DNA of 64,000 bases. Source: Myxococcales bacterium. GTDB taxonomy: Bacteria > Myxococcota > Myxococcia > Myxococcales > Myxococcaceae. Position numbers and translations under genes: made by a program. Of the stretch, positions 56,707-57,889 are shown one piece after another. The notes under the pieces are model-generated. The model was not told the DNA's origin and did not search any database. It saw nothing but the letters and a program-made list of their open reading frames with translations. The DNA lies in contig JACPVI010000081.1 of assembly GCA_016191815.1 (NCBI GenBank), forward strand, positions 1 to 64,000, given 5' to 3'. Position 1 is the stretch's first letter, and each line of letters opens with the position of its first letter.

Positions 56707-57471
56707 ATGTCCGCCCTGAGGGCGAATCTGAACGTGGTGTGCCACCAGATCCGTTCGCCCGACAACCTCGGAGCCGTCGCCCGGCTGATGGTGAACTTTG
56801 GCTTCCAGCGGCTGACCCTCTCGGATCCGGGAACCTACGCCTTCAGGGAGGCGGCGAAGATGGGTGTGGGGGCCGAGCCGGTGCTGGAGAAGCTCCAGGT
56901 CGCACCAGGGCTGGGCGAGGCGCTGGCCGAGTCGGTGTATTCGGTGGGGACGAGCTCGCGAGCGAGGCTCAAGCGGCGGAGCACCATCGCCCCGGAGGAA
57001 GGCGCGCGCCGGTTGGCGGAGGCCTCGGCCCGCGGAAGGGTGGCGCTGGTCCTGGGTGGCGAGAAGCGCGGAATGTCCGACGAGGACCTTTCGATCTGCC
57101 AGGACGTGATCTCCGTCCCGACCGAGGAGTCGCAGCCTTCGATGAACCTGGCTCAGGCAGCCGCGGTCTTGCTCTACCTGTGCGCGCGCGAGGACGGAAG
57201 GGCGGCCGCTCCCGTCGTCGAGGAGAGCAGTCCCCTCTCCCGCGGGCGGGAGCGGGTCAGGGTGAGGGTGGGAGCGCCCCACTCGCTCCTCGCGGAGATC
57301 GAGCAATCTCTCGGGCGTGCGCTGCTGGCTTCGGGGTTTTTGAATCCGCAGGCACCGGAGCACGCGCTACGCGAGCTATTGCGTTCCCTCGCGAGGTCGG
57401 GCCTCTCCCGCCGCGAAGCTGAGATGTGGCTCTCGGCGGCCCGCCACCTGCAGCGCAGGTGCTCTTCCTAG
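56707..57471 (+). CDS. TrmH/SpoU-type RNA 2'-O-methyltransferase (TrmJ-like)
   Basis: A 254-residue SPOUT methyltransferase. Motif 1 (NLNVVCHQIRSPDNLGAVARLM), motif 2 (VALVLGGEKRGMSDEDL) and motif 3 (SVPTEESQPSMNLAQAAAVLLYL) carry the knot and SAM-binding residues. The domain order (catalytic, then helical tail) resembles TrmJ, which modifies tRNA position 32; the target is not proven. Between about 175 and 190, a stretch SPLSRGRERVRVRVGA interrupts the junction and is encoded by a REP-like palindrome. Confidence 0.9.
   Translation: MSALRANLNVVCHQIRSPDNLGAVARLMVNFGFQRLTLSDPGTYAFREAAKMGVGAEPVLEKLQVAPGLGEALAESVYSVGTSSRARLKRRSTIAPEEGARRLAEASARGRVALVLGGEKRGMSDEDLSICQDVISVPTEESQPSMNLAQAAAVLLYLCAREDGRAAAPVVEESSPLSRGRERVRVRVGAPHSLLAEIEQSLGRALLASGFLNPQAPEHALRELLRSLARSGLSRREAEMWLSAARHLQRRCSS
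57231..57271. repeat. REP-like palindrome inserted in frame in the methyltransferase gene
   Basis: An imperfect palindrome (CCCCTCTCCCGC then GCGGGAGCGGG) followed by TCAGGGTGAGGGTG. This CTCTCCCGC...GCGGGAG...TCAGGGTGAGGG shape is a familiar dispersed intergenic repeat in proteobacterial genomes. Here it lies inside the coding region, between the SPOUT domain and the C-terminal helices, and keeps the frame. Confidence 0.65.
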
Positions 57472-57478
57472 CCCGCGC

Positions 57479-57835
57479 CTACTTGCCGCGTTCGAGCTTC
57501 GAGATGCGGTCTTCGTGGTCGTCAAGGCGAGCGTCCTGCTCGCCCATCGCCGCCAGGAGCGCTTCCATGGTTCCCGTCATCTTGGCGGATGTGGTGACCA
57601 TCTTGCCCAGCGTTGCGTGGACGGTTCCGATGTCCTTTTCCAGTTGCCCGACCGTCACTTGCAGTTGCCCGACCGTCACTTGCAGCTGCCCGGCCGTCAC
57701 TTGCAGCTGCCCGACCGTCGCCTGCAACTGCGTGAACGAGCCTTTTAGCCCTTCGACGGACCCCTGCAGCTCCCGGTGCTCCTGAAGAAGCTGCAGGAGG
57801 ATGTCGCGCCCCGCCTTGCCGTTTCCCTTCGTCAT
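57479..57835 (-). CDS. small coiled-coil protein with seven-residue tandem repeats
   Basis: A 118-residue protein predicted to be nearly all coiled coil. Residues 36-70 contain the heptad VGQLQVT repeated four times with small changes. The DNA repeats with a 21-bp period (about 57645-57730), so the heptads arose by tandem duplication. The C-terminal part (KMTGTMEALLAAMGEQDARLDDHEDRISKLERGK) is also heptad-like. The ATG at 57835 is preferred over an upstream in-frame start. Function unknown. Confidence 0.7.
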   Translation of the reverse strand: MTKGNGKAGRDILLQLLQEHRELQGSVEGLKGSFTQLQATVGQLQVTAGQLQVTVGQLQVTVGQLEKDIGTVHATLGKMVTTSAKMTGTMEALLAAMGEQDARLDDHEDRISKLERGK

Positions 57836-57889
57836 GCTTCCGTCCTCCGAGGCACAGTATAGCGCTCGGTCTGACGTCACGCGGCCCCG

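Follow-up and report, generated by a model that had tools for sequence, protein, structure and literature searches.

BoxC, also described as the PIT element, the subject of the original papers by Hoyne, Maher and colleagues, and as TM_ECO, has been presented by Holder et al. 2015 (PMC4666352) as a class II intrastrand triplex motif composed of a C-rich arm, a G-rich arm and a second G-rich tract, with the definition CCCTCNCCC N3-6 GGGNGAGGG N3 GGGNGAGGG and one mismatch at most. According to the same source, all 23 copies in E. coli MG1655 (K-12) were intergenic, this location being an observation in MG1655 and no part of the definition of BoxC, and the motif was tied to genome instability. 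Palindromes that enter coding sequences have been described in other systems, such as the Rickettsia RPE, which are palindromic repeats lying in frame within the genes for conserved proteins (PMC3733652, PMC2759123). The GTAG/CGTC REPs were reported to be mostly intergenic, with some of them wholly within ORFs and with termini that often give the stop codon of the flanking ORF, and in recB two Xanthomonas species were found to carry different REPs at nearly the same position (PMC3733652). The enterobacterial RU-1/2/3 (ERIC, YPAL) are small repeats joined to genes in the same reading frame, with MITE-like units of 103–168 bp and TA duplications (Delihas 2007, PMC2759123). Thus, the Rickettsia precedent invoked in the earlier note on the DNA analysed here stands and is joined by the GTAG/CGTC REPs and the enterobacterial RU.

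The window considered in this work, a whole stretch of 64,000 nucleotides from a myxobacterial genome, contains one BoxC copy within a gene, unlike the copies of MG1655, and other copies in the same genome are also intragenic and in frame. The repeat shares with the published BoxC the three-block layout CCCTCNCCC-loop-GGGNGAGGG-N3-GGGNGAGGG and the dispersal in many copies on both strands, while the commonest form in the host genome has a stem longer by GC/GC. With the Rickettsia RPE it shares the in-frame palindromes in the genes for conserved proteins, in a different group of hosts; the likening is one of behaviour, namely an in-frame palindrome absent from orthologues, and this is clear in TrmJ and CysG. 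In contrast to the GTAG/CGTC REPs, the BoxC copies have neither a consistent tag nor an accompanying match to the Y1 transposase in the host genome, and a third G-rich tract, as in BoxC, is, as far as could be seen, not mentioned for those REPs (PMC3733652). The ERIC/RU repeats differ by their size from the BoxC of ~37 bp, for which a duplication was not detected, and the element does not belong with the MITEs of the ERIC/RU kind.

The trmJ-like Gene and Its BoxC Element

The locus contains the following features:

56707–57471, forward strand: gene for a predicted TrmJ/YjtD-type SPOUT RNA 2'-O-methyltransferase of 254 aa (Pfam, TIGR00050 and solved-chain matches)
57184–57270, forward strand: putative inter-domain linker, residues 160–188, with the insert in its second half (linker lengths in relatives, pLDDT)
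57232–57268, forward strand: BoxC / PIT / TM_ECO element, 37 nt, in frame (covariance-model match, published pattern)
57233–57241, forward strand: pyrimidine arm CCCTCTCCC, the Y strand of a potential triplex (sequence; layout of Holder et al. 2015)
57248–57256, forward strand: purine arm GGGAGCGGG, the R strand (sequence; consensus of 19 copies)
57260–57268, forward strand: third-strand (reverse Hoogsteen) tract GGGTGAGGG (sequence; conserved in 19 pattern-selected copies, a conservation already demanded by the search pattern)

The 254-residue protein is predicted to be a tRNA-methylating enzyme, namely a SPOUT methyltransferase of the TrmJ/YjtD kind. The Pfam family SpoU_methylase was matched on residues 8–157 (E 1.7e-25), the TrmJ/YjtD subfamily model TIGR00050 on residues 7–240 with E 3.6e-35 and 121.9 bits, the curated cut-off of 167.15 not being reached, and the solved TrmJ chains matched the protein at E 9.5e-19 to 1.1e-17. 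The part of the gene downstream of the element scored negative (-4.7) in the home-made codon model, and the same part aligns with the relatives. An ORF at 57479–57880 on the reverse strand, convergent to the trmJ gene, encodes a small protein in which a QLQVTVG-like unit is repeated in tandem.

The earlier note had reported a REP-like dispersed palindrome at 57231–57271, within a methyltransferase gene, with the addition of residues in frame between two domains. The sequence confirmed the palindrome in this gene, with the extent of 57232–57268 (CCCCTCTCCCGCGGGCGGGAGCGGGTCAGGGTGAGGG), and its reading in frame as PLSRGRERVRVRV, residues 176–188 of the 254-aa ORF 56707–57471; the TGA within GGGTGAGGG is out of frame in trmJ. 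The purine arm GGGAGCGGG is altered from the 19-copy consensus GGGAGAGGG at one of the 9 positions, and the sequence of the window copy would permit an intrastrand triplex at 8 of 9 positions. The stability of the DNA fold given for the element by a hairpin predictor was not above that of shuffles (z 0.35).

The location between two domains is supported by the AlphaFold2 model of the protein, built from a five-sequence input, whose mean pLDDT of 69.5 makes it a model of moderate quality. It consists of two ordered parts with a coil at residues 166–188, where the pLDDT is <50, between the helices 148–162 and 192–208. This low-pLDDT coil between ordered parts suggests that the insert most likely sits in a flexible, disordered linker.

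The Linker in Related Proteins

A match to the protein was present in 59 of 60 genomes, and the best 30 loci, that is the own gene and 29 relatives with 49–62% protein identity to the window protein, were aligned. The linker, counted from the conserved LLYLC block to the conserved GA, has 29 residues in the window protein versus 12–19 residues (median 15) in 28 of the 29 relatives, so that the excess over the median relative is about 14 codons (42 nt). The gap in TrmJ-like orthologues which the earlier note expected at these residues was thus found, and the same residues, free of a palindrome, were not seen among the 29 aligned relatives, from which the insert is absent. The contig search for close relatives of trmJ, whose collection may omit the window's own record or very near ones, gave only four loci at 49–59% identity, and the site that appears empty by alignment is known only from relatives at 49–62% identity, whose linker length also varies. 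The direction of change was presumably insertion and not loss.

The one exception among the 29 relatives is the TrmJ of the genome G009 (locus L021, G009:C709; also locus L134, Archangiaceae bacterium isolate nzgw249), with a linker of 36 residues. This gene contains a 76-base palindrome, unrelated to BoxC, which occupies the same linker in frame. Within G009, the palindrome was matched 44 times at E<=0.1, with the trmJ copy on either strand making up two of the matches and a few places matched in two pieces, and the host genome of the window (G000) gave only seven matches, short and weak; a strict BoxC match was not found in G009 by the pattern count. The trmJ linker has been hit twice, by two unrelated dispersed palindromes, which recalls the different REPs in the Xanthomonas recB (PMC3733652).

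The Repeat Family in the Host Genome and the Phylum

The host genome is a draft of 6.77 Mb, 98.76% complete. The pattern CTCTCCC-N-GGGAG-N-GGGTGAGGG occurs there in 19 copies, with 10 and 9 of them on the two strands, and the control with the reversed pattern gave 0. These strict copies are alike over ~37 bases (TCCCCTCTCCCGCnnGCGGGAGAGGGnCAGGGTGAGGG) and hardly at all in the flanks. The covariance model derived from them gave 149 matches in the genome, at least 91 of which span the whole model at E<=1e-3, the count being a minimum as 150 of 17002 first-look candidates were scored, and the window copy was the fifth by score (58.4 bits, positions 1–37 of 37). In the phylum, strict matches were found by the pattern count in 43 of 195 genomes, and their number per genome was very uneven: many genomes of the same family have 0, and the richest genome has 630.

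The window copy has 1 mismatch to the published TM_ECO pattern, which is allowed, and loops of 6 and 3. Among the 88 copies that were classified by site, 38 follow this pattern in full (0–1 mismatch, published loop lengths), 14 have 0–1 mismatch with other loop lengths, and 36 have at least two mismatches. On the grounds of sequence, the window element is BoxC / PIT / TM_ECO and not a REP in the narrow sense. From the earlier description as a REP-like dispersed palindrome, the dispersal holds, with at least 91 full-length copies, and the assignment to BoxC is a refinement.

It may be supposed that a GC-rich, arginine/valine-rich linker simply chances to hold a palindrome, the more so as the halves of the motif and its fold are unremarkable and the linker length of TrmJ proteins varies. 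Indeed, CTCTCCC-N-GGGAG alone was found once in the window of 70% GC, where 1.21 occurrences are expected, and GGGTCAGGGTGAGGG alone with 2 mismatches was found once versus 0.42 expected. However, the 34-base query with up to 3 mismatches had the window copy as its sole match in the window, where shuffles expect 0; the full motif is repeated 19 to 91 times in the genome, the element sits on the extra residues, and CysG has nearly the same peptide at a gap. The whole motif, with 19 copies in the genome versus 0 for the reversed pattern, is therefore beyond chance, even if its halves singly are near it, and coincidence is considered extremely improbable. A chance palindrome was ruled out as a candidate by the copy number, though the halves and the fold are near the chance level.

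Sites of the Other Copies

The sites were classified with the use of a home-made codon-usage gene finder trained on the window, for 88 copies, which are the 91 full-length ones (E<=1e-3) after removal of the second member from each of three close pairs (C76:23264, C25:131732 and C36:92384). The majority, 57 of the 88, are intergenic, nine are internal and in frame, with >100 bases of the called gene on either side, 14 contain the stop codon of the neighbouring gene, and eight touch gene ends, as follows:

Internal copies (nine): TrmJ, CysG, a double glycosyltransferase, YfhO-like and STT3-like membrane proteins, a TPR protein, a sugar transferase, a beta-helix protein and a Kelch protein
Stop-giving copies (14): L051, L067, L072, L075, L077, L080, L081, L082, L087, L090, L094, L117, L126 and L131
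Copies near the protein's end (four): L113, L125, L058 and L102
Copies touching a gene otherwise (four): L083, a possible fifteenth stop-giver (195-nt ORF, score 12.7) that is counted in this group, L097, L105 and L106

The genome thus holds further copies of both the intergenic and the intragenic kind, as the earlier note had anticipated, and with nine of the 88 internal and in frame, the trmJ case is not alone. The internal copies are nevertheless strongly depleted, since called genes take in 84.8% of the 37-mers drawn at random from the window, and likewise 472 of the 528 control places within these loci. The forward stop-giving copies yield such tails as PSPARGRGLG or PLPRAGEG, and the reverse ones yield PSP, each followed by the stop, while at L081 two convergent genes both terminate within one BoxC copy. 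In five related genomes, the 30 loci drawn from 1058 strict copies counted included 24 intergenic, two internal, two near a start and two stop-supplying ones; an internal copy at L202 separates the kinase domain of a hybrid histidine kinase from its receiver domain.

The internal copies use at least three reading registers and both orientations. That the element is open in most reading registers is what GC-rich DNA leads one to expect and calls for no further account. For each protein scanned, the stretch listed as best for a given Pfam family lies beside the element, with no overlap. The comparison with orthologues covered TrmJ, CysG, the sugar transferase and the STT3-like protein. In CysG, 13 residues encoded by the element, with nearly the same peptide as the TrmJ PLSRGRERVRVRV, stand where all 15 of the 15 aligned relatives have 0–4, which is a clean gap. 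The CysG matches to the solved 2ybq, 2ybo, 1s4d and 1cbf run through the insert, which places it within the fold there and not between domains. The sugar transferase, with 0–12 residues at the site in 15 relatives, is a weaker case, and the STT3-like protein has no clean gap versus its relatives.

These sites bear also on whether the trmJ insert was selected as improving the enzyme, either by a longer linker or by a basic RNA-contacting peptide, RGRERVRVRV. TrmJ enzymes bind tRNA, the inserted peptide is arginine-rich, and the linker of G009 became longer independently, also by way of a palindrome. However, 28 of the 29 aligned relatives do without the insert, and the element is read in several registers and in proteins unrelated to one another, a pattern that points to tolerance more than to a function in common and makes selection for improvement very unlikely; the insert is probably neutral.

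Possible Modes of Spread

The short dispersed palindrome, together with inverted pairs in related genomes, would also suit a narrow-sense REP moved by a RAYT, a tyrosine transposase of the Y1/HUH type. GTAG or CTAC was found within 12 nt of 15 of the 88 copies versus 6.9 expected (p 0.004), but the other 73 lack it, CGTC beside the element is at the chance level (18 of 88 versus 17.2 expected), and the window copy has no GTAG/CGTC tag. The Y1 transposase (PF01797, RAYT-type) had no match in the draft host genome, in a search that was positive in 5 of 14 control genomes. Among the high-copy genomes, i.e., the 17 of 195 with at least 17 strict copies, PF01797 was matched in seven, in several of these weakly, while the other ten, including a single-contig genome with 274 strict copies, have none, and across the 195 genomes no association between PF01797 and the high copy number was found (7 of 17 versus 82 of 178, Fisher p 0.80). 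The absence of a detectable Y1 transposase from ten of the 17 high-copy genomes of the phylum is evidence against the RAYT-driven spread of BoxC, and such mobilisation is regarded as unlikely. The identity of the element itself as a RAYT/REP was ruled out by the missing tag and the PF01797 results.

A weak preference was noted in the flanks of the 88 copies, with T at -1 in 47 and G at +2 in 48 of them. In the genomes G106 and G103 (L229–L268), inverted BoxC pairs form composites of ~140 bases (for example, G106:C1:41752-41892), 87–91% alike between the two genomes, and we take them to resemble the REPIN/BIME doublets. The first 400 kb of these two genomes, compared for empty sites, were not collinear and of no use for that.

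A target-site duplication was not found, with the direct repeats in the flanks of the 88 copies at the shuffle level. This absence is in favour of a spread that needs no transposase, in which hairpin or triplex single-stranded DNA at stalled forks would lead to template switching or short gene conversion. At the E. coli ilvC-ppiC locus, 22 of 40 evenly spread records have the full stretch, 17 are short by ~41 bases, and the fortieth is one short plasmid match. The alignment of two alleles with and two without BoxC (L286, L288–L290) revealed that a short spacer had been replaced, with a net difference of 41 bp, and no clean insertion. At a second E. coli locus, coverage of the query reached 80% in 316 of 5426 genomes. 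A BoxC-like match was also seen in the E. coli plasmid pMTY18781-3 (L291, 1501–1552), with a glycosyltransferase gene and a frameshifted lysine-N-methylase gene on either side.

An inversion of 7.2 kb between the congeneric genomes G027 (C30) and G007 (C1, 3160001–3360000; L269–L285), one side of the pair being a draft contig, has both breakpoints in inverted BoxC copies, and agrees with the published link of the motif to genome instability (PMC4666352), which likewise speaks for the transposase-free spread. A clean empty BoxC site was not seen in ~139 kb compared between G007 and G027. On the other hand, the cases are few, namely one E. coli locus with two alleles per type and one inversion with a draft contig on one side, and clean junctions are lost in old insertions as well. 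The spread free of a transposase is therefore a serious possibility, to which we would give somewhat less than an even chance, and a distant or lost transposase may also be the mover of BoxC.

Interpretation and Significance

It is very probable that a 37-nt BoxC was copied into the trmJ linker, translated there and tolerated, that the other copies arose alike, and that their mover needs no detectable Y1 transposase from the host genome. By this explanation, the dispersed element would have been copied into the part of the trmJ-like gene for the flexible linker that joins the SPOUT catalytic domain to the helical domain at the C-terminus. With the net gain of ~14 codons (42 nt), the reading frame of trmJ is kept, with the element read as PLSRGRERVRVRV, presumably translated as 13–14 extra amino acids; the insert would persist because the linker tolerates extra hydrophilic residues. 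Selection would spare the copies between genes, those in frame in linkers and loops, and also those at gene ends, where the element's own TGA, TAG or TAA serves as the stop codon. The transposition step itself would have left no detectable target-site duplication and required no detectable Y1 transposase in the same genome.

In a broader reading, unrelated palindromes would act in myxobacterial proteins as recurrent portable linker cassettes, entering the same domain boundaries independently, as with BoxC in this trmJ and the unrelated 76-bp palindrome in that of G009, and with no transposase of their own; one register would lengthen the linker and another would give a stop codon. This reading is speculative and rather improbable; if true, it would mean a repeated change of linker length and C-termini in myxobacterial proteins.

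Reports of BoxC/PIT within genes, or of such repeats in myxobacteria, were not found among the open-access papers listed, of which two Enterobacter genome papers contain parts of the motif. As far as could be seen, a known repeat and a known manner of insertion are combined here in a way apparently unreported before, and the insertion of BoxC in frame inside genes looks new. BoxC, whose E. coli K-12 copies were all described as intergenic, lies also in frame in the genes for conserved proteins of a myxobacterium. The nine internal insertions and fourteen gene ends among 88 copies of one genome provide a testable case of non-coding repeats becoming protein sequence, and the doubt about the RAYT turns the mover of BoxC into an approachable question.
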